In this document: positions 1,764-54,342 of the stretch, piece after piece
Layout: every line of letters begins with the position of its first letter
Numbering within the stretch: the first letter of the stretch is position 1
From: an uncultured Flavobacteriaceae bacterium
GTDB taxonomy: Bacteria > Bacteroidota > Bacteroidia > Flavobacteriales > Flavobacteriaceae
DNA length: 64,000 bases
Direction: 5' to 3'
NCBI GenBank assembly: GCA_947502635.1
Contig: CANNAN010000006.1
Location: 1-64,000 of the forward strand
Made by a program: the position numbers and the translations under genes
Notes under the pieces: generated by a model
What the model was told of the DNA's origin: nothing
What the model saw: the letters and a program-made list of their open reading frames with translations, nothing else
Databases searched by the model: none

Positions 1764-4700
1764 ATGAATAAGCAAGTTTTAATTTCTTTTATCGTAACGC
1801 TCTTTGTATTGCCTTTTATAAATGCGCAAACCACACCTATTCCTGATGCTAATTTTGAAAACTATCTAGAAACGCATTCTGCTAGTGGAGCTTCAGTTCC
1901 TGTAGGCGATCCTGCCAGCATGGGAGACGGTATTGAAAATAATAACCTGGTTTTAACTAGTAGAATTCAAGATGTGGTTACTTTAAGCATTAGTGATTTA
2001 AATATAGCCGATCTTACTGGCATTGCAGGTTTTGCAAATTTAGGCACACTTATTTGTAGCAATAATAAATTGACATCTCTTGATGTTGCTTCAAATCTCA
2101 ATTTAAAATCGTTGTTGTGTGGTTTGAATTTATTAACCGATTTGGATATAAGATCTAACGATGCATTAGAAATTCTGGACTGTTCTGGGAATCAATTAAC
2201 AGATTTAACTTTACAAGAAAGCAATGTTGCTTTTAACCCTTTGTTAGAAAGACTTACTTGCTCTAACAACCAGTTAAAAAGTTTGGATATTAGTGAAAAT
2301 GTGAATTTAAAAGCTGTTATAGCAACTCAAAATCAACTTAACGGTATATTCGATGTTAGTGCTAATACAAATTTAGAATCTTTGTTTTGTGCATCAAATC
2401 AAATAACCTCACTAGATCTGAGTACAAATACGGTATTAAAAAACATTGATGTATCTAATAATTTGCTCACAACTCTAGATCTCAGCACCATAAACACATT
2501 GGCATGTCCAGTGACACAGCCAAACCCACCAGTGGTATGTCAAGGAGATGCATCTATTAATGTGTCTCGAAATAAGTTAGTGGATTTAAATATTGCTAAT
2601 GGATTTAATTCATTAATTAATGCCTTTAATTCTGAAGAAAATCCAGACCTGCCCTGTATTCGAGTAGATTCTGGTTTTGCACCGCCCACCACAGGAGATT
2701 TCGCTTGGATAAAAGACGATTGGACATATTATAATACTGGTGTTTGTGACGATATATACACCTATGTTCCAGATGATAAATTTGAAGAGCGGTTAATAGC
2801 TCTAGGGCATGATTCTGGGGAACTGGATAATTTGGTGCTAACAGCAACTATTGAAATTTTATCAGATTTGGATGTTAGCGGAAGAAGTATTTCAGATTTA
2901 ACAGGTATTGAGGATTTTACAAATTTAATTAACTTAAATTGTAGTAATAATGATTTAAAATCCATTGATTTATCAAATAATTTGGAATTAGAAAGTGTCG
3001 ATTGTTCTAATAATATTTTGCCCGCATTGAATTTGAGCGATAATATTAAATTAGAGTCGCTAATATGTGCTTCGCAAACACCTTATGTTGATGCAGACGA
3101 TGCTTCTAAAAACTATACTTTCAACAGTTTAAAAGTACATGCTAATACAGCATTAATTGTACTTGATTGTTCTAATAATGACCTAACAGAATTGGATGTA
3201 AGCCATCATGTTGATTTAGAAGATTTAGATTGTTCATTTAATAGAATAGAAGCTTTAAATGTAAGTACTAATAGTGCGTTAACACGTTTTTTATGTCATG
3301 ATAATGCCTTACAAACGTTAAATTTAAAAAACACAAATAACGCTGCATTAAATCCTTTTAATGCTGATAACAATCCTAATTTATCTTGTATTGAGGTTGA
3401 TAACTTACCAGTTCCTGCACTAGGATGGGATAAAGACCTAAACTCCAATTATAGTGATTTAGGATGCGGTACCTATGTGCCTGATGATGATTTTGAAACA
3501 TATCTTGAGACGCATAATGCCAGTGGTGGTATGGTTCCACTTGCAGATCCAACCAGTATGGGTAATGGGGTTATGGATAATTTTGTTCCTACAAGTAAAA
3601 TAAGAGTAGTAACAGGACTGGATGTATCTTCGCAAAGCATTAGCGACCTAACAGGGATTCAAGATTTTGAGGACCTATTAAATTTGAATTGTAGCGGAAA
3701 TACCTTAACAAGTTTAGACCTATCTAATAATACAAGCTTAACGACCATTGATTGTTCTTCAAATCTAATTGAAAATTTAGACTTTAGCTCAAATGTTAAT
3801 TTAATCTCTTTATTATGCTACGATAATAACTTGTTCACTTTGAGCATAAAAAATCTAAATAATGCTAGCTTGACTACATTTGATGCAACTATAAATAATA
3901 GTTTGTATTGTATTGAAGTAGATGATGAAACTGCTATTGGTGGAGGATGGTTAAAAGATGATTTAATAGCAGACTATAGTGAGGATTGCGAATTTGGACG
4001 ATTTACAATTTTATACGATGATAATTTTGAGCAAGCGTTAATAGACTTGGGGTTAGATTCTGGTGCACTTGATGGTCGGGTTTTAACATCAAATATAGAA
4101 CACCTATTAAGTCTTAATGTAAGTGATAAAAATATAGAAGACCTTAGAGGAATAAAAGATTTTTCGTCACTTGAAGCGTTAGATTGTAGCGGCAATAATT
4201 TAAATGAACTTGATGTTAGTGATATGGTTAATTTGAAATTTTTTAATTGTAACTCAAATCACTTTTTAACTAATAATGTTGCAGCGTTAAATGGGGTGTT
4301 AAATATTTCGGGTACAGATAGTCTAATTAAATTGTTTTGTGCCAGTAATAATTTAAGTAGCTTGGACATGACGCTTAGCCCGGACCTAGAAACATTAGAT
4401 TGTGCAGATAATAATTTGAATACACTAACAATTTCAAATAATACACAATTAAAAGTGCTTAATTGTTCTAACAATAACTTAACAGGTATAGATATTAGTA
4501 ATAACATTATTCTAGAAGAAGTAAATTGTAATAGTAATGAAATATCTAACTTAACGGGTTATAATGCCGATAATACGACCTTGCAAATAGTGAGTTGTAA
4601 TAACAATGCTTTAAAAACCTTGATAGTAAATAGATTGTTGGCATTAACAACTTTAAATTGCCGTTCTAATATGCTAAGCGAGCTTATTGTAAATTCAAAT

Positions 4701-7523
4701 ACGGCATTAGAAATTTTGGATTTTAGTAATAATTCAATTGGTGATATTGTTTTAACCAGTAATCCTAGTTTAATTTCGTTGTTGGCTTCTCAAAATCAAT
4801 TGACTGAGTTGAATTTGAATGGAAATACACTTCTAGAACAGTTAAATTGTGATAATAATCAGATAGACGAATTATTTGTTAATACAGCGCCTTCAATAAA
4901 ATACCTTTCTTGTAATAATAATCAATTGGAGGATTTAAATTTAATGAACAATACGAATTTAATTGAAATTAGTATAAGTTCAAACATGCTATCAGATTTA
5001 ACGTTGTCAAATGACCTTAGCTTATTAAAAACATTCAACTGTAGCAATAATCAATTAATGGGAGGAATAGATTTAAGCACTATGGGAACAGCAGCATGCC
5101 CACTAGCTAATCCGAAAAATTTACAAGATTTTTGCCCAGATACGATTTCAATTAACTTATCGAGTAACCAATTAGACTTTATAAATATTCAAAACGGTAT
5201 AAATCCCGAAATATCGAATTTTAATGCCAGCAATAATCCAGAATTAGATTGTATTCAGGTTGATGATGTTAGCAACATAGGAGCAAGTTGGCTAAAAGAT
5301 GCCGCAACGCAATACAGTTTAAATTGTCATTTTGGAGAAACTTATGTGCCCGATGATAATTTTGAACAAGCCTTGCTTGTATTTGATCCAGGGCCGTTAG
5401 ATGATTACGTATTAACATCAACAATAGAAGGGGTGCAAAATTTGGATATTAGTGGGAATAACATTTCAGATTTAACAGGAATTGAAGATTTTATAGCATT
5501 ACGAGATTTAAATTGTTCTAATAATGCTTTAAGTTTAATGGATTTGAGTGAAAATATAAATTTAACGGATGTTAATTGTTCAAATAATACATTTTCAGAT
5601 TTAGATTTTAGTAATAATCTGGCATTAACAACTCTTGATTGTTCTAACACGACCCTAAATAATTTAGATTTAACAGCAAACGTTAATCTTACAGACCTTA
5701 ATATTTCTAATAATACTTTTTCAGAATTTGATCCTAGCGTCATTCCAACACTAGAAGTTTTTAATTGTGATTCTAACCTGATTTTAGACCTTGATTTTCA
5801 GTATAATACTGCATTAACCAATTTGAGTTGTCAGTCCAATATGCTTGAGAAATTAAATGTTAGAAATGGTCAAAATGCAAACCTGATTAGTTTTAATTCT
5901 CAAAACAATACCAATTTAACCTGTATAGAGACCGATACAGGAGCTGTGCCTAATGGCGTTACATGGGCAAAAGATGCTTCTGCGGAATATGTAATAAATT
6001 GTTATTATGGACAAACTTACGTACCTGATGATAATTTTGAACAGGCCTTAATTTCATTGGGTTACGACTCTGGTGCCTTGGATGATTATGTAGATACAGC
6101 AAACATTAATAGTATTTCATTTTTAAATATAAGTCATGAGGATATTTCAGATTTAACAGGAATAGAAGCCTTTGTAAGTCTAACAGATTTAAATTTTGAG
6201 GGTAACACTGTTACTAGTGTAGATTTAAGTGGAAATGTACTTTTAGAAAATTTAAATGCTTCAAATAATACATTGAATGCTTTAGATTTATCCTTTGCAG
6301 CTAATTTAATAACTGTAGTTGTTTCTAATAATAATTTATCTCAATTAAATTTAGATTCAAATGTAAATATATTAGACTTGAATGTCTCGAGTAATGAGCT
6401 AACATCTATAAATGTAGATCGATTGGTTAACCTAGAAAAATTCGATTGCTCTTTAAATCAATTAGGGAGCTTAGATGTTACTTCAAATTCAAATTTAAAA
6501 GAACTCTATTGTCAATCTAACAATTTTATACAAGATAGATTAAATATTCAGAATGGTGCCAACCAAACTCTAGAAAATTTTAATGCAACTAACAATCCAG
6601 ATTTGAGTTGCATTTTAGTTGATGATCCTCATGCTGTGATATCTAACTCTAGCGGTATTTACGATAATTGGTTTAAAGATACAAGCGCAAATTATCAGAC
6701 TATTTGTGATGATGCCGATAATGATGGTGTTGCCAATGCAGACGACTTGTGTCCAGGAACATTATTTGGTGAGTCTGTCGATTTATTTGGTTGTCCAATT
6801 TTAAATTTACCTAACAATAACTTCACTATTTTAATTACAGGAGAAACATGCTTAAATAACAACAATGGTAAAATCAATATTACCACTATGGAATATTATA
6901 ATTATACGGCTACTTTAACAGACGATGATTTTAATAAAGAATACCATTTTACTAATGATATTGATATCTTAAATTTGTTGGCAGGTACTTATAAAATGTG
7001 TATTACTATTGAAGAATGGCCAGATTATATAAATTGCTATGATGTTGTAATTAGCCAGCCAGAGCCATTAAGTGTTATAACTAGTAAAAGTGCTAATGGC
7101 AAAAAAGTTGCCATAAATATGTCTGGTAGTTCTAGCTATCATGTAGATTTTAATGGATTGAAATTTAGTACAACAGATGCTGCTATGGAATTAAGTTTGC
7201 AAAAAGGTGCTAATAGTATAAAAATTAGTACCGATTTGGAATGTCAGGGCGCACATGAAGAAAAGATATTTGTTTCAGATGAATTGATGGTTTATCCGAA
7301 TCCTTTTGAAAATGAAGTTAATCTATACTTAGGATCTAATGAATCTGATATCGTAGTTATAAATATGTATTCTTATTTAGGACAATTGGTATATTCAAAA
7401 ACATTAATAAATCCGCAAAGTAATAGCTATACTTTTGATACGGACAGATTTGCGAATGGTTTTTACTCGCTGTCTATTAAGACTAATGAATCCACATCCA
7501 CATTTAAAATTGTAAAAAAATGA
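1764..7523 (+). CDS. Giant leucine-rich-repeat protein with T9SS sorting domain (six modules)
   Basis: 1919 residues with a signal peptide (MNKQVLISFIVTLFVLPFINAQ, cleaved near residue 21) and a C-terminal type A T9SS sorting domain (about residues 1838-1919, starting LMVYPNPFENEV), so it should be exported and anchored or released at the cell surface. Between them are six modules. Each opens with a phrase like TYVPDDNFEQALI, continues with ISDLTGIEDF and runs of roughly 21-residue LRR units (LDCSNNQLTSLDLSxN), and closes with a CI(E/Q)VDD...W-x-KD...Y...C cap. Modules begin near bases 1828, 2758, 3468, 4000, 5337 and 6012. A thrombospondin-3-like calcium loop (DADNDGVANADDLCP, near base 6710) follows. 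A surface binding or adhesion role is inferred; the ligand is unknown. Its stop overlaps the next gene's ATG by 4 bp. Confidence 0.85.
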   Translation: MNKQVLISFIVTLFVLPFINAQTTPIPDANFENYLETHSASGASVPVGDPASMGDGIENNNLVLTSRIQDVVTLSISDLNIADLTGIAGFANLGTLICSNNKLTSLDVASNLNLKSLLCGLNLLTDLDIRSNDALEILDCSGNQLTDLTLQESNVAFNPLLERLTCSNNQLKSLDISENVNLKAVIATQNQLNGIFDVSANTNLESLFCASNQITSLDLSTNTVLKNIDVSNNLLTTLDLSTINTLACPVTQPNPPVVCQGDASINVSRNKLVDLNIANGFNSLINAFNSEENPDLPCIRVDSGFAPPTTGDFAWIKDDWTYYNTGVCDDIYTYVPDDKFEERLIALGHDSGELDNLVLTATIEILSDLDVSGRSISDLTGIEDFTNLINLNCSNNDLKSIDLSNNLELESVDCSNNILPALNLSDNIKLESLICASQTPYVDADDASKNYTFNSLKVHANTALIVLDCSNNDLTELDVSHHVDLEDLDCSFNRIEALNVSTNSALTRFLCHDNALQTLNLKNTNNAALNPFNADNNPNLSCIEVDNLPVPALGWDKDLNSNYSDLGCGTYVPDDDFETYLETHNASGGMVPLADPTSMGNGVMDNFVPTSKIRVVTGLDVSSQSISDLTGIQDFEDLLNLNCSGNTLTSLDLSNNTSLTTIDCSSNLIENLDFSSNVNLISLLCYDNNLFTLSIKNLNNASLTTFDATINNSLYCIEVDDETAIGGGWLKDDLIADYSEDCEFGRFTILYDDNFEQALIDLGLDSGALDGRVLTSNIEHLLSLNVSDKNIEDLRGIKDFSSLEALDCSGNNLNELDVSDMVNLKFFNCNSNHFLTNNVAALNGVLNISGTDSLIKLFCASNNLSSLDMTLSPDLETLDCADNNLNTLTISNNTQLKVLNCSNNNLTGIDISNNIILEEVNCNSNEISNLTGYNADNTTLQIVSCNNNALKTLIVNRLLALTTLNCRSNMLSELIVNSNTALEILDFSNNSIGDIVLTSNPSLISLLASQNQLTELNLNGNTLLEQLNCDNNQIDELFVNTAPSIKYLSCNNNQLEDLNLMNNTNLIEISISSNMLSDLTLSNDLSLLKTFNCSNNQLMGGIDLSTMGTAACPLANPKNLQDFCPDTISINLSSNQLDFINIQNGINPEISNFNASNNPELDCIQVDDVSNIGASWLKDAATQYSLNCHFGETYVPDDNFEQALLVFDPGPLDDYVLTSTIEGVQNLDISGNNISDLTGIEDFIALRDLNCSNNALSLMDLSENINLTDVNCSNNTFSDLDFSNNLALTTLDCSNTTLNNLDLTANVNLTDLNISNNTFSEFDPSVIPTLEVFNCDSNLILDLDFQYNTALTNLSCQSNMLEKLNVRNGQNANLISFNSQNNTNLTCIETDTGAVPNGVTWAKDASAEYVINCYYGQTYVPDDNFEQALISLGYDSGALDDYVDTANINSISFLNISHEDISDLTGIEAFVSLTDLNFEGNTVTSVDLSGNVLLENLNASNNTLNALDLSFAANLITVVVSNNNLSQLNLDSNVNILDLNVSSNELTSINVDRLVNLEKFDCSLNQLGSLDVTSNSNLKELYCQSNNFIQDRLNIQNGANQTLENFNATNNPDLSCILVDDPHAVISNSSGIYDNWFKDTSANYQTICDDADNDGVANADDLCPGTLFGESVDLFGCPILNLPNNNFTILITGETCLNNNNGKINITTMEYYNYTATLTDDDFNKEYHFTNDIDILNLLAGTYKMCITIEEWPDYINCYDVVISQPEPLSVITSKSANGKKVAINMSGSSSYHVDFNGLKFSTTDAAMELSLQKGANSIKISTDLECQGAHEEKIFVSDELMVYPNPFENEVNLYLGSNESDIVVINMYSYLGQLVYSKTLINPQSNSYTFDTDRFANGFYSLSIKTNESTSTFKIVKK

Positions 7524-8303: not shown

Positions 8304-9896
8304 ATGCAGCAAAAGAGTATTCCTTTTCATAAAACAGGCTATTTTTCATCATTAATTTGTGATTATTTAGCAGAGAAAGAAAATTTAAGTCAGTTTTACA
8401 ATCGTTTTCCAAGTATTGAAAATTTCAAACACCAAATAGAAGAGAAACGTATATCTTTTCAAGAACAGTCTAGAACTGTTTTAACTCATGCTGTTCAGCG
8501 TCAATACAATGACTTAAAAGCTTCAGAACTAACACTTCAAAATATTGAAAGTTTATCATTAGAAAATACTTTTACAATTACCACAGGGCATCAGCTTAAT
8601 TTATTTACAGGGCCCTTATATTTTTTATATAAAATAGTTTCAGCTATTAATCTTTCAAAACAATTAAAAGCAACCTATCCAGAATATCATTTTGTGCCCG
8701 TTTATTGGATGGCGACAGAAGATCATGATTTTGATGAAATCAATTATTTTAATTTTAAAGGCAAAAAGGTACAGTGGAATAGAGAGTCTCAAGGCGCTGT
8801 TGGAGAATTGTCTTTAGAGGGTTTAGAAGACGTATTTAATTTATACTCACAAGAATTAGGGATTAGTAAAAATGCGGATTATTTAAGGAATTTATTCAAT
8901 GATGCGTACTTAAATCATGATAATTTGGCAGATGCCACGCGTTATTTGGCTAATGAGCTATTTAAAGATTATGGTTTGGTTATTATTGATGCTAATGATA
9001 TTGATTTAAAAAAACAGTTTGCTCCCTTTGTAGAAGATGAATTGCTAAATCAAAATGCTTTTAAGTCTGTTTCAGAAACAAATGAAGCACTTTCTAAGGC
9101 ATATGGAATTCAGGTAAATCCGCGTGAGATCAATTTATTTTATTTAAAAGAAAATTTACGGGAACGTATTGTTTTTGAAGATGATTTATATAAAGTATTG
9201 AATACCGAAATTAGCTGGAATAAACAAGACGTGCAAACGGAGCTCTTAGAGCATCCAGAAAGATTTTCTCCAAATGTGATCATGCGTCCGTTGTATCAAG
9301 AAGTCATATTACCTAACCTTTGTTACATTGGTGGTGGCGGTGAATTAGCTTATTGGTTTCAATTAAAACAATTTTTTAATAAGGTTGATATACCATTCCC
9401 AATATTATTGTTACGAAACTCTGTTTTGATCAAGACAGAACAGCAAGCTGATAAATTAAAAAAACTAGATATATCTGATGAAGATATCTTTTTAAAGCGA
9501 GATACTTTTATCAATAAAAAAGTAAGAGAAATATCGAATATTGACATTAATTTTTCAACTCAAAAAGAGCATTTAGAAGCACAATTTAAGGCATTGTTTA
9601 AGTTAGCAGAACAAACAGATAAATCGTTTTTGGGAGCTGTAGAGGCTCAAGAAGTAAAGCAGAAAAAAGGTCTGGAAAATTTAGAAAAACGCTTGCTTAA
9701 AGCTCAAAAGAAAACGTTGGCAGATCAGGTTTCCAGAATCACCGAGTTACAAGAACAATTGTTTCCTGGTAGAAGTTTGCAAGAGCGCAATACCAATTTT
9801 TCTGAGTTTTATTTAGAGTATGGAGACCAACTCATTCCTAAACTTATAGAACATCTAGAACCTTTAAAAGGGGAGTTCATAATACTAAATCTTTAA
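8304..9896 (+). CDS. bshC: Bacillithiol biosynthesis cysteine-adding enzyme BshC
   Basis: 530 residues, the usual length of the family. The protein has the characteristic N-terminal opening (IPFHKTGYFSSLICDYL), the nucleotide-binding core TGHQLNLFTGPLYFLYK, and VYWMATEDHDFDEI. BshC is thought to ligate cysteine to glucosaminyl-malate, the last step of bacillithiol synthesis in the cytoplasm. C-terminal residues ~425-500 are a charged helical segment, as expected for the BshC coiled-coil arm. Bacillithiol is the main low-molecular-weight thiol in many flavobacteria. The next gene starts 3 bp after the stop. Confidence 0.93.
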   Translation: MQQKSIPFHKTGYFSSLICDYLAEKENLSQFYNRFPSIENFKHQIEEKRISFQEQSRTVLTHAVQRQYNDLKASELTLQNIESLSLENTFTITTGHQLNLFTGPLYFLYKIVSAINLSKQLKATYPEYHFVPVYWMATEDHDFDEINYFNFKGKKVQWNRESQGAVGELSLEGLEDVFNLYSQELGISKNADYLRNLFNDAYLNHDNLADATRYLANELFKDYGLVIIDANDIDLKKQFAPFVEDELLNQNAFKSVSETNEALSKAYGIQVNPREINLFYLKENLRERIVFEDDLYKVLNTEISWNKQDVQTELLEHPERFSPNVIMRPLYQEVILPNLCYIGGGGELAYWFQLKQFFNKVDIPFPILLLRNSVLIKTEQQADKLKKLDISDEDIFLKRDTFINKKVREISNIDINFSTQKEHLEAQFKALFKLAEQTDKSFLGAVEAQEVKQKKGLENLEKRLLKAQKKTLADQVSRITELQEQLFPGRSLQERNTNFSEFYLEYGDQLIPKLIEHLEPLKGEFIILNL

Positions 9897-9899
9897 TAC

Positions 9900-11270
9900 A
9901 TGCACAAGATTGATATTGAATTGGTTGAAATGACTATGGATGTCATGAAGTATGCCATAGATAGGCTCTCGGTAACACAGAGTAAAATAGGACAGCCCAT
10001 GAGCGAAGCTAAACTTAAGGAGCTGGTGGGTGAAACTATTACAGACAAAGGAGTAGGCGGCGAGTATGCTTTTAATTTGTGGAAGAAACATTTAACAAAA
10101 GCTACTGTACCAATAGACCACCCAAGGCATTTAGCTTTTGTTCCTGCATCACCTACCAGAGCGTCTATTCTATTTGATTTAGTAACATCTGCTTCCAGTA
10201 TTCATGGTGCTTATTGGATGGAGGGTGCTGGTGGTATTTTCTGTGAAAATGAAGCGATGCGGTGGATCGTCTCATTAACAGGTTTACCAAAAGGCGCATT
10301 TGGTGTATTTACAAGTGGCGGTACTGCTGCAAATCTTTCGGCAATGGTAACGGCTCGGGAATATTGGAGGAATAATGATGCTTTTAAAAACGAAAAAGGA
10401 CTGATTATTACATCAGTAGGAGCCCATTCTTCAATTAAAGCCATGGCTAAAGTTATTGATGTGGACGTATTGCTAGTAAATAGTGAAGATAGATTACTTG
10501 GTGGAGAGTTACAGGATACGATTGATGGTTTAACACAACAGCAACGTAAAAGATTGTTTTCTGTGGTAGCAACTGGAGGTACAACCAATGCAGGTATTAT
10601 TGATGATTTAGAAGGTATTGCCAATATTTGTGAAAAAGAAAACTTATGGTTTCATGTAGATGCTGCTTACGGAGGCGGTGCTTTGGCAGCAGATTCTGTT
10701 AGACATTTGTTTCATGGCATTGAAAAAGCGGATAGTATTACAATAGATCCTCATAAATGGATGTTTTCGCCTTACGATTGTGGTGCCATTATTTATAAAA
10801 ATCCAGAATTAGCAAAACAAGCACATTCTCAAGAGGGGTCGTACCTCGATATTTTTAAAGACGAAGGGGCTCATGGTTTTAATCCAACAGATTACCAAAT
10901 ACAATTAACGCGACGAGTAAGGGGCTTACCTTTATGGTTTTCGTTAGCAACTCACGGCACAGATCTGTATAAAAAAGCAGTAGAAAGGGGGATTGAATTA
11001 GCTCAAATAGCAGGGAGGATGATTACCGAAAACCCTAATGTAGAACTCGTTAGAGAGCCAAGTTTGTCTTGTGTGTTATATAGAAGAATAGGATGGAAAC
11101 CAGAAGATTATACCAATTGGACTTATGAAAATCATAGAAAAGGGTTTGCATTAGTAACCCCAACGAAATGGAAAAAAAGGGATATTTATGAAACTGTTTC
11201 TCGATTCTGCTTTATTAATCCTGATACTACAGAAGAGGATATAAAAATGATTTTAGATTCTATGGAATAG
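9900..11270 (+). CDS. PLP-dependent group II amino-acid decarboxylase
   Basis: 456 residues of the aromatic-amino-acid/glutamate/diaminobutyrate decarboxylase type (fold-type I PLP enzyme). Visible signatures are FTSGGTAANL (phosphate-binding), HVDAAYGGGAL (PLP-ring Asp), and TIDPHKWMFSPYDCG with the Schiff-base lysine at about residue 286. The substrate cannot be read from the sequence; L-2,4-diaminobutyrate, aspartate or aromatic amino acids are all possible. It starts 3 bp after bshC and is almost certainly co-transcribed with it. A role supplying a precursor for a thiol or polyamine pathway would only be speculation. Confidence 0.85.
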   Translation: MHKIDIELVEMTMDVMKYAIDRLSVTQSKIGQPMSEAKLKELVGETITDKGVGGEYAFNLWKKHLTKATVPIDHPRHLAFVPASPTRASILFDLVTSASSIHGAYWMEGAGGIFCENEAMRWIVSLTGLPKGAFGVFTSGGTAANLSAMVTAREYWRNNDAFKNEKGLIITSVGAHSSIKAMAKVIDVDVLLVNSEDRLLGGELQDTIDGLTQQQRKRLFSVVATGGTTNAGIIDDLEGIANICEKENLWFHVDAAYGGGALAADSVRHLFHGIEKADSITIDPHKWMFSPYDCGAIIYKNPELAKQAHSQEGSYLDIFKDEGAHGFNPTDYQIQLTRRVRGLPLWFSLATHGTDLYKKAVERGIELAQIAGRMITENPNVELVREPSLSCVLYRRIGWKPEDYTNWTYENHRKGFALVTPTKWKKRDIYETVSRFCFINPDTTEEDIKMILDSME

Positions 11271-34925: not shown

Positions 34926-34974
34926 TTCACCATTTTATTTTGATTATTCACCAAAAAAAGTAAGTCATTCACCA
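34926..34974 (+). promoter_or_regulatory. Triple 21-bp-phased operator upstream of lipoprotein A
   Basis: Three identical TTCACCA repeats at 34926, 34947 and 34968, exactly 21 bp apart (two helical turns). The last begins 37 bp before the -7 box at 35005. No -33 TTTG is present, as expected for an activator-dependent promoter. Direct repeats at 21-22 bp are typical of LytTR regulators, and one is encoded at 36482. Matched by a second copy upstream of lipoprotein B. Confidence 0.7.
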
Positions 34975-35004
34975 TATTAATTTTATATGTTTTTCATAAG
35001 AGGA

Positions 35005-35012
35005 TATCTTTG
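35005..35012 (+). promoter_or_regulatory. -7 box of lipoprotein A
   Basis: TATCTTTG, perfect TAnnTTTG, 18 bp before the ATG at 35031. It overlaps the in-frame TTG at 35010, which rules that out as a start. Confidence 0.6.
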
Positions 35013-35030
35013 CCCTTCAAAATAAAAAAA

Positions 35031-36227
35031 ATGAAAAATTTATTTAAAACAAGTGTATTTTTATTAATTAGTTTATTTATTGGATGTAGTTCTGATGATA
35101 GTAAACCACCTGAAGACATTAATCCTCCAAATATTGATTTAGCAGCGGCAAGATTGAATGATTTTCGGTTATCTGAAGTAACCTATACAGATATTAATTT
35201 AACCCAGCCAGAAATTGTTGATGGGGAAGAAAAAACACCAGGTAAGATTATTGTTACTGTTCCATCAGAGACAAATGATCTTAGTTTAAGTTTGGCTTCT
35301 GTTAATTTTGATGAATCTAAATTTGAAATATCACCAGCATTAGGTTCGGTACAATCTTTTGAAGAAGGTGTTATTATTTATACTATTACATCTAGGGAAG
35401 ATGTAGAGAAAAGTATCAGCTATTTAGTTTCAGTAGTAAAAGAAGCGCCAGCTGAGGAAGCATTAAAAATAAAGGGGTTCAAATTCGAACAAAGTAAAAA
35501 CCAAAAATTATCTTCAGATATCGAAGCTACTAAAATAGTAACATATCCAAGTAAAAATTCGGCTATATTTATTCTTGTTCCTGTAGGAACTGAATTAAAT
35601 GATTTGGTTCCAACGATAGATTTTGAAGGTGAGTCTTTAGAATATCAGCAAGGAAGTTCAGATTTCATGGTATATCCAGAAACAGATCTTCATGTTGATT
35701 TTAGAAGTGACTATGATCAGTTAAATTTTAAAGATAAAAATGAATTTACGTTATTAGTTAAGAAGGGTGAGTTTGAAAGGTATTATCGTGTTATTGTAGA
35801 TGTTCAAAATCCAATTGAACTACAAGAAAATTCTGTGTCAACTGGAGATTTAACAGAAGGAGATGGAACTATAAGATATTCATTAAAATGGATTAATAAA
35901 GGAAACCACCCAATAGTAAGGGATCTTAAGGCAAGTAATTATGTAGATAATACGTCTGGTGAAATAGGAAATATATTCAATGCTTATTTAGAGGTTTCAG
36001 ATGTGTTACAAGGGATATATATTAGGCCAAGTGAAGAAGGTGTTGTAATTATAAAAGTTAATACAGATGGAGCTACAATTGGAGATTATAATGTAGATAT
36101 TGTATTTTCTCCAAAGTATGATTTAAATCGAGCTAGAATTAATGATATACGTGATGATTTAAATCCAATTGAAGATATTTTTGAGCCGATAAAATTGAAT
36201 ATTAAGTCAACAATTAAAAGCGAATGA
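35031..36227 (+). CDS. Surface lipoprotein A, paralogue of the gene at 39288
   Basis: 398 residues from ATG 35031. Lipoprotein signal MKNLFKTSVFLLISLFIGC followed by SSDDSKPP. Then two beta-rich repeats beginning LNDFRLSEV (~45) and IKGFKFEQSKNQKL (~145), and a third segment with WINKGNHPIV (~290). It parallels lipoprotein B throughout: LVPVGTELNDLVPTI versus LVPVGTDFTNLVPTI, and DIFEPIKL versus DLFEPAKV at the end. The fold resembles Bacteroidota surface domains of the DUF5018/Ig-like kind, but the family is not certain. Expression is probably controlled by the LytTR pair downstream. Confidence 0.75.
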   Translation: MKNLFKTSVFLLISLFIGCSSDDSKPPEDINPPNIDLAAARLNDFRLSEVTYTDINLTQPEIVDGEEKTPGKIIVTVPSETNDLSLSLASVNFDESKFEISPALGSVQSFEEGVIIYTITSREDVEKSISYLVSVVKEAPAEEALKIKGFKFEQSKNQKLSSDIEATKIVTYPSKNSAIFILVPVGTELNDLVPTIDFEGESLEYQQGSSDFMVYPETDLHVDFRSDYDQLNFKDKNEFTLLVKKGEFERYYRVIVDVQNPIELQENSVSTGDLTEGDGTIRYSLKWINKGNHPIVRDLKASNYVDNTSGEIGNIFNAYLEVSDVLQGIYIRPSEEGVVIIKVNTDGATIGDYNVDIVFSPKYDLNRARINDIRDDLNPIEDIFEPIKLNIKSTIKSE

Positions 36228-36260
36228 AAAAAAATTGAAAAAGAAAAGTTAATTATAAAT

Positions 36261-36300
36261 AAGAGGTTAAGCTTTGAATATAAGGTTTAACCTCTTTTTA
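36261..36300 (+). terminator. Terminator after lipoprotein A
   Basis: A perfect 10-bp stem AAGAGGTTAA / TTAACCTCTT with a 16-nt loop, followed by a T-run. Confidence 0.75.
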
Positions 36301-36305
36301 TTAAT

Positions 36306-36359
36306 ATGTGTTGTAGTTTTATTATGATGTGTTGTAGTATTTTGATCATATGTGGTAAC
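36306..36359 (+). promoter_or_regulatory. 21-bp-phased repeats upstream of the LytTR regulator
   Basis: The 12-mer ATGTGTTGTAGT occurs at 36306 and 36327, exactly 21 bp apart, and a degenerate third copy (8/12 identical) at 36348. It lies just after the lipoprotein A terminator and upstream of the regulator's -7 box. Same period as the TTCACCA operators, but a different core sequence. Confidence 0.5.
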
Positions 36360-36404
36360 GAAAGTAATTAATAAAGTTATTCTAAATTGTTAAGCCCTAT
36401 TCCT

Positions 36405-36412
36405 TAAATTTG
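36405..36412 (+). promoter_or_regulatory. -7 box of the LytTR two-component operon
   Basis: TAAATTTG, perfect TAnnTTTG, 69 bp before the ATG at 36482. Leader of roughly 65 nt. Confidence 0.45.
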
Positions 36413-36481
36413 GTTTTACTAATCAATACAATATTAATACTTTTTTATTGTTTTCAGATTAGTTAAATCTAAAATGTATTT

Positions 36482-37213
36482 ATGGTAATTGATAATAAAA
36501 AAGTATTAATTGTTGAAGATGAGTTTTCTATTGCATTAGATATTAAAACTAGTTTGAAAAAAGAGGGGTATAATATTGTAGGAATAGCGAATAGTTATAA
36601 TGAAGCAATGATGTATGCAGAGGAAGCTATGCCAGACATTGTTATTATGGATATTAATATTTCTGGAGAAAAAAATGGCATTGTAGCAGCCAAAGATATT
36701 TATGATAGGTATAGAATTCCAATTGTTTTCTTGACCGCTTATGGTGATGATGATACATTTAAAAAAGCATTAAAATCTAGACCTTTTGCATTTTTGCTAA
36801 AACCTTTTAATACGAAGGAATTGTCTTTTACAGTACAAATAGCGTTGCAAAAACATTTTGAAAACAATAAGCAGGAAACTACAGTCCCTAATGAAAAAAT
36901 ATCTGAAACCATATTTGTAAAGGATAAATCACAGCTTATCAGTGTTAAGGTAAATAAAATTTTGTGGGTAGAAGCTATGGATAACTATACCCAAATTATT
37001 ACTAAGGATAAAAAAATATTGGTAAATATGTTTTTAAAAGAATTCTATGAAAAAGTACCGCAAGATAAGTTTTTAAGGATTCACAGGTCTTATATGGTTG
37101 CTTTAGATAAAATAGAAAAAATAGAGAACAGGTTTGTTTTTATTAACGGACACAGAATTCCAATAAGTAAAGCCTATAGAAGCCGATTACTAGAACGATT
37201 AGATATTTTATGA
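36482..37213 (+). CDS. LytTR-family response regulator
   Basis: 243 residues. Receiver domain (1-125): acidic pocket VEDEF (Glu12, Asp13), phosphoacceptor Asp57 in VIMDINISG, Thr in FLTAYG, Lys in LLKPF. C-terminal LytTR DNA-binding domain (~140-243): WVEAMDNYTQIITKDKKILV and FLRIHRSYMVALDKIEKIEN. LytTR proteins usually bind two direct repeats one or two helical turns apart, and 21-bp repeats occur upstream of this gene and of both neighbouring lipoproteins. The kinase gene starts 1 bp after the stop. Confidence 0.93.
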   Translation: MVIDNKKVLIVEDEFSIALDIKTSLKKEGYNIVGIANSYNEAMMYAEEAMPDIVIMDINISGEKNGIVAAKDIYDRYRIPIVFLTAYGDDDTFKKALKSRPFAFLLKPFNTKELSFTVQIALQKHFENNKQETTVPNEKISETIFVKDKSQLISVKVNKILWVEAMDNYTQIITKDKKILVNMFLKEFYEKVPQDKFLRIHRSYMVALDKIEKIENRFVFINGHRIPISKAYRSRLLERLDIL

Positions 37214-37214
37214 T

Positions 37215-39152
37215 ATGAAGAAAATTTTACTCTTTTTAAAACATTTTTTTTATTCCTTTTTCCTATTTTTTTATGTTTCATCAATTGCACAAACCGATAG
37301 TTTAGAGCAGAAATTAGTCAATGCTCCTAAGAAAGAAAAAATTGATATATATAAACAGCTGGTTGATGCATACAGTAAAATAAACGTAGACAAAGCCATT
37401 GATTATGCAAATAGTGGGCTAGAGTTGGTAAAAGATGAGAATAGTAAGAATTTAGGTTTCTTTTATTTAAAACTTGGGTACCTCCATAATGATAAGTCTG
37501 AACACGTCAAAGCACTGTTTTATTATAAAAAAACATTGAAAGTAGCTGAAGAGATGAATTACGAATTAGGAATTGGCAAATGTTATCAAAATATTGGTGT
37601 GACTCATATAAAAATGGGTGACTATAATGAGGCACTCGGTTTTTATCTAAAAGCACTTAAAATTTTTGAAAAACATAATGAAGAAAGTCTTATTGCAGGC
37701 ATAGTTGGTAACATAGGGTCTTTATATTCGTGTCGATTAAAAGATGATGATAATGGTTTATTATATTATAATAGATCGTTAGAAATTTTGAAAAGTACTG
37801 GGAACGACGAGCTAAGATCACATATTTTAGGGGCTGTTGCCGAGATGTATATGAGACAAAAAAAGTTCTCTAAGGCTAAAAATGTGTTAAAAGAAGCTCT
37901 GGATATTGCAGAAAAAGCAAACATTTCAAAAGTTATTATATCTGTTTTAAGCAATTTATCTCAAATAAATATAGACGAAAAAGATTTTAAACAAGCATTA
38001 GTGCATTCAAAAAGAGTGTTAAAAATACGTTTAGAATCAGGATATACACAAGGCAATACATCAACCTATCTAACACTTGCAAATATTTATGAGAAACTTA
38101 ATAATACCAAGGCGGCTAAATTACATTATGATAAAGCGCTTTCTGTTGCTTTAAAATCGAAAGCCTTGCCTCAATTATCAAGAGTATATAAGGCATTGTA
38201 TGAATATGAGGATAGAAAAAATGATTATAAGAAGAGTTACGAGTACGTATTAAAATACAATAAGGTTCAAGATTCTTTGTTCACTAAAGAAAAAGATAAA
38301 CAGCTTAAGGAAGTACAAGCTAAATTTGATTTAGAAAATAAGGAGAAAGAAATCCTATTTCTAACTAAAGAAAATCAAATAAAAGCTTTGGAAAATAAGA
38401 ACCAAAGTACAGCGCAAAATATATTAATAATTGGGTTGCTAGCGTTAACTATTATCCTATTGACATTACTCTTTGCCTATAAAAATAAGAAAGGAAGTAA
38501 TAAAATTTTAGCAGAGAAGAATGAGATTATATCTCAAACCTTAAAAGATCGTGAAATATTATTAAAGGAAGTCCATCATAGGGTAAAAAATAATTTACAG
38601 ATTGTATCGAGTTTATTAAGACTTCAGTATAAGTTTGGTAATCATAAAAGCGCATCAGAAATCTTACAGGAAATTCAGGATAAAATACAAGCCATGTCTA
38701 TTATACATGAAAGGTTATATAAGTCGAGTAATTTGTCTCTGATTAATTTACAAACCTACCTCGATAATTTACTAAGCTATTTTAATACAAGTTATGCGCT
38801 TCCAGAACAAAATATAACGATTACTACAGATATAGATAATATAGACCTTGGTATGGATCGCCTAGTACCTTGTGGTTTAATTGTCAATGAAATAATAGCT
38901 AACAGTATTAAATATGCATTTCAGGACCAAACAAGCGGTCATATAAGTATAAAAGCTTCAAAAAACGAAGATAAATGCGTACTCACAATTGAAGATACAG
39001 GAGTTGGTTTTCCAGATAATTTTAAGGTAGAAAATTATGAATCTTTAGGCATGCAACTCATACAGGGGTTAACAAAACAAATAAAAGGTTCTGTAGATAT
39101 AATTTCTAACCCAGGCGCATGTTATACGATTACATTTAATATGGATTCATAA
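37215..39152 (+). CDS. TPR sensor histidine kinase (HisKA_2 type)
   Basis: 645 residues. Signal or anchor (HFFYSFFLFFYVSSIAQ), then six or seven TPRs (~30-360; e.g. GDYNEALGFYLKALKIFEKH), a membrane segment (NILIIGLLALTIILLTLLFA, ~400), a short coiled coil, and a HisKA_2 domain with phosphoacceptor His455 (EVHHRVKNNLQIVSSLLRLQ). The ATPase domain has N box IVNEIIANSIKYAF and G box DTGVGFP. The TPR region probably faces the periplasm and binds a protein or glycan ligand. Cognate partner of the LytTR regulator encoded 1 bp upstream. Confidence 0.92.
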   Translation: MKKILLFLKHFFYSFFLFFYVSSIAQTDSLEQKLVNAPKKEKIDIYKQLVDAYSKINVDKAIDYANSGLELVKDENSKNLGFFYLKLGYLHNDKSEHVKALFYYKKTLKVAEEMNYELGIGKCYQNIGVTHIKMGDYNEALGFYLKALKIFEKHNEESLIAGIVGNIGSLYSCRLKDDDNGLLYYNRSLEILKSTGNDELRSHILGAVAEMYMRQKKFSKAKNVLKEALDIAEKANISKVIISVLSNLSQINIDEKDFKQALVHSKRVLKIRLESGYTQGNTSTYLTLANIYEKLNNTKAAKLHYDKALSVALKSKALPQLSRVYKALYEYEDRKNDYKKSYEYVLKYNKVQDSLFTKEKDKQLKEVQAKFDLENKEKEILFLTKENQIKALENKNQSTAQNILIIGLLALTIILLTLLFAYKNKKGSNKILAEKNEIISQTLKDREILLKEVHHRVKNNLQIVSSLLRLQYKFGNHKSASEILQEIQDKIQAMSIIHERLYKSSNLSLINLQTYLDNLLSYFNTSYALPEQNITITTDIDNIDLGMDRLVPCGLIVNEIIANSIKYAFQDQTSGHISIKASKNEDKCVLTIEDTGVGFPDNFKVENYESLGMQLIQGLTKQIKGSVDIISNPGACYTITFNMDS

Positions 39153-39176
39153 CTATAGTATAGAAAGCATATTAAC

Positions 39177-39225
39177 CTTACCAGTTATTTAAGCTCTTTT
39201 ACCATAAAAATAAATAGATTCACCA
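39177..39225 (+). promoter_or_regulatory. Triple 21-bp-phased operator upstream of lipoprotein B
   Basis: CTTACCA at 39177, TTTACCA at 39198 and TTCACCA at 39219: three repeats with ACCA invariant, exactly 21 bp apart. The last begins 37 bp before the -7 box at 39256, the same distance as in the lipoprotein A promoter. Shared spacing at two separate sites makes chance unlikely. Confidence 0.7.
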
Positions 39226-39255
39226 TGTTTATTTAGAAATACTATAGAGATAGTA

Positions 39256-39263
39256 TAAGTTTG
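39256..39263 (+). promoter_or_regulatory. -7 box of lipoprotein B
   Basis: TAAGTTTG, perfect TAnnTTTG, 24 bp before the ATG at 39288. It covers the alternative TTG start at 39261, which is rejected. Confidence 0.6.
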
Positions 39264-39287: not shown

Positions 39288-40460
39288 ATGAATAGAAGTT
39301 TTAAATTACAAAGTATTGGGGTCTTATTGTTCACTGTTATTTTCATGATAGGTTGCGATTCTAGTGATGAAAGCACTAATACTTCTCAAGGGGTTAATAT
39401 TGAAGAGGCCAAGCTATCGAATTTTCCATTATTTGGAATAGAAAGCATAAGTGTAGAAATTACGGATCCTGTTATTACAGAGAATAAAGAAGTTACCTAC
39501 GGGGAAATAAAAATTACAGTCCCAAGTACCGTATCTTTGGATGATATCAGAGCATCAATTACATCTGAAGAGCTTAATTTGAGCAAGTTTAGTATATCGC
39601 CTGGTACTGATGTCGCATTATCTTTTGAAGACGAAAAAGTACATGTATTTACCATTAGCACAGCTACAGGTAATAAAGAAGCATTGTTGCATTATAATGT
39701 TAGTATTATCAAGGAGTTACCACCAGTTCCTGAGACTTTAAAATTAACAGGCTTTACATTTGAGAAAAGTAAAAATTCAAGCTTGCCTAATGATGTTACA
39801 ATTTCTAAAAGAGCAGATATTAATATCAGTTACGAAAAAATTTATCTTTTAGTGCCTGTAGGAACCGATTTTACCAATTTAGTACCGACCATTACCTATG
39901 AAGGGGCGAATTTGTATTATAGCCAAGATACTTCTATTGCTCCTGTAGATATGAACGTGGCATTTCCAGAAGGAGATACTAGCTTTGATTTTGAATATCC
40001 TAAGGAGTTTTTATTAGCAATTAAGGACAAAAACAATGAAGAAGTGAAACTAATTGGAGTTATTGTAGATGTTGTTAATCCAGTTAGAATAGAAACGGTA
40101 TCTGTTACAACTCCTGATGCAACAGAAGGGACATCTGGTAATTTTAGAGGTGTTACTAAATGGGTCAATCAAGGCAATCATAAAATCCATTTTCAAAAAG
40201 CAACAACTTATGAGGATGTTAGTCCTGTTGTTACACCAGAACCTTCAACGAAGGCAATTACTGTAAATAGAATTCTTACTAGTGGTGGACTATTACCTGG
40301 AGAAAGTGCCGATATAAACGCAACAGTGGCATCTCAATATTATCCAGAGGGAACATATAAAACCACCGCTGTTTTCTACACCAAAATATTTCAAGATAAT
40401 GGTAGTGATGATTTATTTGAGCCAGCAAAAGTAACAGTGACATCAAAAATTATTAAATAG
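39288..40460 (+). CDS. Surface lipoprotein B, paralogue of the gene at 35031
   Basis: 390 residues from ATG 39288. Lipobox MIGC followed by DSSDESTNT. Beta-rich repeats like those of lipoprotein A: AKLSNFPLFGIESI (~42), LTGFTFEKSKNSSL (~145) and KWVNQGNHKIHF (~285), ending in SDDLFEPAKVTVTSKI. Diverged but collinear with lipoprotein A; an old duplication. Probably under the same LytTR control, since its upstream region carries the same operator geometry. It follows the kinase after a 135-bp gap. Confidence 0.75.
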   Translation: MNRSFKLQSIGVLLFTVIFMIGCDSSDESTNTSQGVNIEEAKLSNFPLFGIESISVEITDPVITENKEVTYGEIKITVPSTVSLDDIRASITSEELNLSKFSISPGTDVALSFEDEKVHVFTISTATGNKEALLHYNVSIIKELPPVPETLKLTGFTFEKSKNSSLPNDVTISKRADINISYEKIYLLVPVGTDFTNLVPTITYEGANLYYSQDTSIAPVDMNVAFPEGDTSFDFEYPKEFLLAIKDKNNEEVKLIGVIVDVVNPVRIETVSVTTPDATEGTSGNFRGVTKWVNQGNHKIHFQKATTYEDVSPVVTPEPSTKAITVNRILTSGGLLPGESADINATVASQYYPEGTYKTTAVFYTKIFQDNGSDDLFEPAKVTVTSKIIK

Positions 40461-40523
40461 TTTAAAATTGTCTGCTAAGGTATTTTGTGTTGAGAATTAA
40501 TAATAGCAAAGTTTAATCTCTTA

Positions 40524-40559
40524 AGTCTGGATAATGTTATCATTATTCAGGCTTTTTTT
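40524..40559 (+). terminator. Terminator after lipoprotein B
   Basis: A 13-bp stem (AGTCTGGATAATG / CATTATTCAGGCT, two G-U pairs), 4-nt loop, then seven T residues. Strong intrinsic terminator. Confidence 0.85.
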
Positions 40560-54274: not shown

Positions 54275-54330
54275 ACTGACCACTGACCACTGACCACTGA
54301 CCACTGACCACTGACCACTGACCACTGACC
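54275..54330 (+). repeat. Right heptanucleotide tandem array, (ACTGACC)n
   Basis: Eight perfect copies of ACTGACC from 54275 to 54330. Read on the other strand this is (GGTCAGT)n, one base different from the left array unit GTTCAGT, so the two arrays are inverted relative to one another. It ends 12 bp from the stop of the 3-hydroxyacyl-CoA dehydrogenase gene. Confidence 0.97.
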
Positions 54331-54342
54331 ACCAATTTTACC

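Follow-up and report, generated by a model that had tools for sequence, protein, structure and literature searches.

Almost all LytTR response regulators recognize two repeats of 9 to 11 nucleotides with 11 to 13 nucleotides between them (PMC4847170), and AgrA occupies a pair of direct repeats located upstream of its promoters (PMC4227749). The canonical sites of AgrA, YpdB and VirR, the last of which is represented here by a reference title alone, share a step of about 21 bp. RcoM1 of Paraburkholderia xenovorans has three direct 8-bp repeats with 12 to 13 bp between them, which gives steps of 20 to 21 bp (PMC11347149). In this study, we analyzed a stretch of 64,000 nucleotides from an uncultured Flavobacteriaceae bacterium (GenBank assembly GCA_947502635.1, contig CANNAN010000006.1, positions 1 to 64,000; hereafter the window). 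The promoters of two lipoprotein genes in it, A and B, each carry three direct repeats of the form YTYACCA (Y is C or T), spaced by exactly 21 bp and followed by the -7 box at a constant distance; the DNA between the two genes encodes a LytTR response regulator and a sensor kinase.

The locus shares with described LytTR operators a LytTR regulator encoded alongside, direct repeats about 21 bp apart and a position just upstream of -33. In contrast to the canonical sites, which consist of two repeats with other words, three repeats were found here (and four on contig 17 of the related genome G156), placed before a Bacteroidota -7 promoter. RcoM1 and CoxC of Afipia carboxidovorans resemble the window in combining a LytTR domain with three direct repeats near the -35 region, but their words are TTCNNGCA / TTNNNGCN rather than YTYACCA, and CoxC is a one-component CO sensor that represses, whereas the regulator encoded here is a two-component protein with a receiver and a LytTR domain in Bacteroidota. 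In Escherichia coli, BtsR (YehT) has a LytS-type kinase and a pyruvate transporter as its target, and its yjiY probe, read by eye on the sense strand, contains ACCG and ACCA 21 bp apart (PMC4847170), i.e., two repeats against the three of the window arrays. The BtsR model matched the window regulator over the whole length, with 77.6 of 246 bits, far below the cut-off. In the LytTR regulatory systems (LRS), the partner of the LytTR protein is a membrane inhibitor, not a kinase, whereas a kinase with TPR, HisKA_2 and HATPase_c domains takes that place here. In LRS promoters (HdrRM and BrsRM), 12 bp is the usual distance between the LytTR repeats, which are preferentially located 10 bp upstream of -35 and serve positive autoregulation (PMC6193735).

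Thus, three-repeat LytTR operators are already known (RcoM1 and CoxC; PMC11347149), as are LytTR steps of about 21 bp. The preliminary description of the window had stated that no operator of this form was described in flavobacteria. This agrees with the open-licence papers, whose accessible parts (PMC5395568 included) yielded no LytTR operator from Bacteroidota, but the form itself is known outside the phylum. Given the RcoM1 and CoxC precedent and the lack of a Bacteroidota example in those papers, novelty is limited to the word, the two-component reader and the strict link to the Bacteroidota -7 promoter.

Both operators are on the forward strand. Operator A has TTCACCA at 34926-34932 and 34947-34953, and a third TTCACCA followed by a conserved AT-rich extension, TATTAATTTT, at 34968-34984; its -7 box, TATCTTTG, occupies 35005-35012, 37 bp from the start of repeat 3. 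The end of TATTAATTTT falls at what we take to be the expected -33 position. Operator B has CTTACCA at 39177-39183, TTTACCA at 39198-39204, and TTCACCA with the extension TGTTTATTTA at 39219-39235, and its -7 box, TAAGTTTG, lies at 39256-39263, again 37 bp from the start of repeat 3. The repeat and box positions given in the preliminary description proved exact to the base on rereading, as did its 37-bp distance to TAnnTTTG at 35005 and 39256. Its 21-bp steps also held: among [CT]T[CT]ACCA triplets at any step from 8 to 59 bp, the window contained only those at 21 bp, and only at these two promoters. The window also holds, at 54276-54331, a head-to-tail run of the 7-bp repeat CTGACCA.

The genome scan suggested with the preliminary description was then carried out. 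In the 5,439,710 bases of the genome, the exact triplet at 21-bp steps occurred twice, both times at these promoters, and a reversed-pattern control gave no match. From the motif frequency in the window, 0.0014 exact triplets were expected per genome. When up to three mismatches were allowed, 30 matches were found against 11 in the control, so the loose matches are mostly background. A chance repeat in AT-rich DNA is therefore an almost negligible explanation: other triplets at 21-bp steps do exist, such as TGTTGTA at 36307-36356, but that one is not common to the relatives read, whereas the YTYACCA arrays exceed expectation at exactly the two lipoprotein promoters and are conserved across two genera, as described below.

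It had also been pointed out that neither promoter has a TTTG at -33. This is literally correct (TTTT at 34981 and TTTA at 39232) but weak as evidence, since the TTT at this position is conserved across 16 aligned promoters. TAnnTTTG is the -7 element of this promoter type, with TTTG near -33, and in Flavobacterium johnsoniae no -33 motif could be identified, as reported in PMC7366714; thus, the absence of a -33 TTTG says little.

To follow the arrays in relatives, 12 genomes of the genus were compared. A regulator orthologue (74 to 100% identity) was present in eight of them, and the other four gave distant regulator matches only (best E value, 4.7e-30). In all eight regulator-bearing genomes, the arrays were kept at the locus while the spacers drifted; among the eight loci read, lipoprotein A was missing from two (G151 and G153). 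The 16 arrays before lipoprotein genes in these genomes aligned almost without gaps. This set leaves out a further lipoprotein B copy (G153_B2), in which no array was seen, and two G156 lipoproteins with four-repeat arrays. On contig 17 of G156 (L096), four-repeat arrays at 8655-8724 and 10853-10922 precede two very similar lipoprotein genes, with a kinase-like gene about 5 and 7 kb away.

Within the 16 arrays, ACC did not vary in the first two repeats and hardly did in the third, whereas the last base of ACCA varied in repeat 1 (A in 8, C in 6, T in 2). Repeat 3 runs on into TATTAATTT, with the TTT at the -33 position. The steps were 21 bp throughout except for one of 22 bp (G019_B, read by eye). 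The -7 box was perfect in 12 of the 16 and had five of six letters in the other four. As printed, it lay at 37 bp in 14 of the 16, at 36 bp in G019_A and at 38 bp in G019_B; in the latter the script had forced a 21-bp step, and from the real third repeat, one base on, the box is at 37 bp by eye. A wider set of 51 sites aligned without gaps and showed a T-tract following repeat 1 and an A-rich stretch following repeat 2; because a box at 37 bp was one of the criteria by which these sites were selected, they are no test of the distance.

The alignment bears on a second alternative, namely that a duplication giving rise to lipoproteins A and B merely copied the upstream DNA and left the repeats without function. 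The two proteins are indeed about 34% identical, but what is conserved upstream is chiefly the repeats, the AT tracts and the -7 box, and the same array stands before unrelated genes. We consider common ancestry as the sole cause very improbable. On the genome counts, the upstream alignment and the arrays before unrelated genes, both chance and pure gene duplication were rejected.

The distance was examined separately with 34 triplets picked by their repeats only, in 18 loci fetched only for the regulator. A TAnnTTTG-like box with at least five of six letters stood exactly 37 bp from the start of the last repeat in 29 of the 34, with one further box at 35 bp and one at 36 bp; the sites are related by descent and thus are not 34 independent events. 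Loci fetched with R1, a sequence-only profile built from the 16 arrays, had the box at 37 bp in 16 of 19 cases. In a broader set including these loci the count was 43 of 56, a figure to be read with the fact that R1 itself contains the box.

R1 was also used to compare the presence of arrays and regulator. In the genus, the best E value was at most 7.6e-15 in each of the eight genomes with the regulator and ranged from 8.1e-4 to 0.038 in the four without it; arrays were counted as present in 8 of 8 and in 0 of 4, respectively. Because the eight genomes had supplied the training sites, Aquimarina serves as the independent test. The regulator (58 to 76% identity) was found in 12 of 66 Aquimarina genomes, three genomes with matches of only 35 to 36% being counted as lacking it. 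An array at an E value of at most 6.3e-5 was present in all 12 genomes with the regulator, compared with one of the 54 without it at an E value of at most 1e-4 (G184; next best, 2.5e-4). Fisher's test on this hand-entered table, with genomes treated as independent and phylogeny ignored, gave P = 2.6e-12. The array of G184 (L208; contig 48, 60520-60605) has a perfect -7 box and no convincing gene directly downstream; it is perhaps a relic.

Linked copies travel with the regulator, and unlinked arrays were therefore counted separately. Arrays at an E value of at most 1e-5 that lay on a different contig or at a distance above 60 kb were found in 10 of 20 genomes with the regulator and in 1 of 58 without it; this is a hand count, and in draft assemblies a different contig may still be near. 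The orthologue adjoins arrays in the eight Flavivirga-group loci and seven Aquimarina loci read. Around other similar response regulators, 50 loci (184,817 bp) contained no triplet by the same rule. A word-free triplet search of 28 loci around other regulators of the family gave one weak case, with weak cases in 2 of 30 shuffles; as a positive control, this search recovered array A and missed array B.

Triplets were also found near more distant relatives of the regulator, in Microscilla (57% identity; L111) and in two Bacteroidia metagenome-assembled genomes (46% and 44%; L112 and L113), before different genes. The Microscilla triplet precedes a kelch/TIG protein, and the other two precede exported-looking proteins without a Pfam family. 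A box with five of six letters lies at 37 bp in L111 and L113; in L112, by eye, the box is at 38 bp. Among 147 genomes of other genera of the family, R1, run with stricter filters and 29 candidates scored per genome, gave no match at 1e-5 (best, 3.7e-5 in G042). A second profile, R2, was searched against 395 genomes of the phylum with 11 candidates scored per genome, so that weak arrays may be missed; it matched only the genome of the window (three arrays) and, weakly and partially, G042 (1.4e-5, positions 22-76). Among matches at an E value of at most 1e-45 (seven candidates per genome), no other genome of this sample had a regulator above 41% identity. The system is thus patchy: in one genus it occurs in 8 of 12 genomes, in the other in 12 of 66, and in the phylum sample clearly only in the genome of the window.

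Outside the locus, two matches in the window's genome had two mismatches to the triplet. One of them, C3:222642, was also recovered by R1 (E = 8.7e-9) and precedes a lipoprotein gene with DUF285 and Big_2 domains, with only four of six box letters at 37 bp; the other, C6:213067, was absent among the R1 matches listed. A further 45 R1 or pattern sites were examined for downstream genes. For seven, no open reading frame of at least 90 amino acids began in the stretch searched, and G156 C5:209290 was a partial chance match. The downstream genes include relatives of lipoproteins A and B, proteins that resemble the DUF285 lipoprotein by eye (G019, G156, and G164), repeat-rich exported proteins (G156), and beta-propellers with type IX sorting tails, recognized by Pfam for L206 and the L094 gene and by eye in G157 and G156. 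The genes at L094 and L095 are several hundred bases or more from the array. In G153 and G163 an array precedes the regulator gene itself, and G163:138159 precedes a 147-amino-acid protein without an obvious signal peptide. Arrays far from the regulator precede unrelated genes, many of them exported-looking, and G156 alone has 20 arrays at an E value of at most 1e-5. In four G156 loci (L199, L200, L201, and L202), similar exported-looking genes follow one another, and several of them have an array to themselves. In L095 of the same genome, a lipoprotein B copy at 4299-4840 was matched piecewise in different frames and looks broken.

Altogether, a kinase with TPR and HisKA_2 domains and a LytTR regulator probably switch on a regulon of surface proteins by way of an operator with three head-to-tail sites. 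The activator-type operator proposed in the preliminary description is the best-supported reading, as suggested by footprinting, by co-occurrence in two genera and by the triplets of distant relatives. The two arrays would serve as operators for the two-component system whose genes lie between them. The kinase, with its TPR sensor and HisKA_2 core, would answer an envelope signal and phosphorylate the response regulator. The LytTR domains of the latter may then line up head to tail on the three YTYACCA sites, which face the same side of the DNA at intervals of two helix turns. The last protomer, 37 bp from the -7 box, would reach the poor -33 region and recruit RNA polymerase. The predicted output comprises lipoproteins A and B and the DUF285 lipoprotein elsewhere and, in relatives, other mostly exported-looking proteins. 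The constant promoter distance and the three sites ending at -33 fit an activator that replaces the -33 contact.

The regulator might instead bind the array and repress, three protomers blocking RNA polymerase in the manner of CoxC, a LytTR repressor whose three direct repeats overlap the -35 box (PMC11347149). The conserved repeat 3 extension does reach the -33 position here, but the repeat words themselves lie upstream of -33, keep a strict distance to the -7 box and do so before unrelated genes as well. Repressors often tolerate variable operator placement, which counts against repression. Among LytTR-type regulators, the majority are activators with binding sites upstream of -35 (PMC11347149). 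We regard repression as unlikely.

Several observations weigh against activation by this kinase-regulator pair. Five of the 34 regulator-fetched triplets lack a box at 37 bp: an unrelated CTGACCA tandem in two registers, one out-of-register copy, G019_A, and one G156 array with only four of six letters there. In loci fetched by pattern (L096 to L098), the box was at 37 bp in only one of six. At a lower threshold, the repeat rule matches a coding stretch in three Aquimarina loci (L103, L107, and L110), and these matches are background. The gene after the Microscilla regulator (L111, 1576-2760) encodes TPR repeats and no kinase domain, so that of the three distant loci only L112 and L113 have the full regulator-kinase pair. 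As for co-occurrence, R1 was trained on the same eight Flavivirga-group genomes, linked copies and the regulator are in part inherited together as a block, and G179 has the regulator with only a weak array (6.3e-5).

The remaining counterevidence would suit a reading in which some other DNA-binding protein, for instance a second LytTR regulator of the genome, recognizes the array and the 36482 regulator is a mere neighbor. The regulator has 40 matches in the window's own genome, and a paralogue could share the operator code; no regulator was found in G184 despite its strong array (3.4e-10); and on contig 17 of G156, a receiver-LytTR regulator other than this one is encoded about 5 and 7 kb away from the arrays. 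Yet the arrays follow the presence of the 36482 regulator in two genera, unlinked copies included, and they adjoin its distant relatives and were not found in the 50 loci around other regulators. A different reader is accordingly judged quite improbable.

The genes of the locus are all on the forward strand, in the order lipoprotein A, hairpin, LytTR regulator, kinase, array B, lipoprotein B, and hairpin. Lipoprotein A (35031-36227; 398 amino acids) has a lipobox by eye, and lipoprotein B (39288-40460; 390 amino acids) is its paralogue; neither matched a Pfam family at an E value of at most 0.001. The AlphaFold model of lipoprotein A was all-beta (pLDDT 79.6) and loosely resembled many tandem Ig-like proteins; because the query TM-score was at most 0.27 among the 50 matches listed, no function was assigned. 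Terminator-like hairpins follow both lipoprotein genes (36261-36296 and 40523-40554), two being found against 1.7 expected in shuffles. The response regulator (36482-37213), the proposed operator reader, combines a receiver (E = 1.6e-20) with a LytTR domain (PF04397; E = 2.6e-21). The sensor kinase (37215-39152) has TPR repeats, HisKA_2 (E = 1.4e-24) and HATPase_c; by eye, it also shows a signal peptide and a single membrane span.

Upstream of the regulator gene lies the second 21-bp-step triplet (TGTTGTA, TGTTGTA, TGTGGTA). It was rejected as a conserved element: among 15 regulator-upstream regions scanned, the window included, it was absent from the other 14, and it is therefore probably due to chance or very recent. 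A conserved leader was seen upstream of the regulator gene in L103 to L110 and less clearly in the window's group; in most Aquimarina loci it ends in a TTTAAATAGCTTTG-like sequence. This leader may be the regulator's own promoter, distinct from the arrays.

The outcome is a single regulator with a readable code and a predicted regulon, whose spacing rules are strict enough for genome scans, and a connection between a LytTR system and both surface lipoproteins and secreted proteins. With its constant 37-bp distance and its array of three sites, the mechanism lends itself to direct tests. More tentatively, the array and -7 box together might form a portable 88-bp promoter cassette, in which three stacked LytTR protomers replace the -33 contact and which has been placed before many unrelated, mostly surface, protein genes of marine Bacteroidota. 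If so, the 20 copies in G156, several before tandem surface-type families, could put a whole cell-surface repertoire under the control of one kinase.

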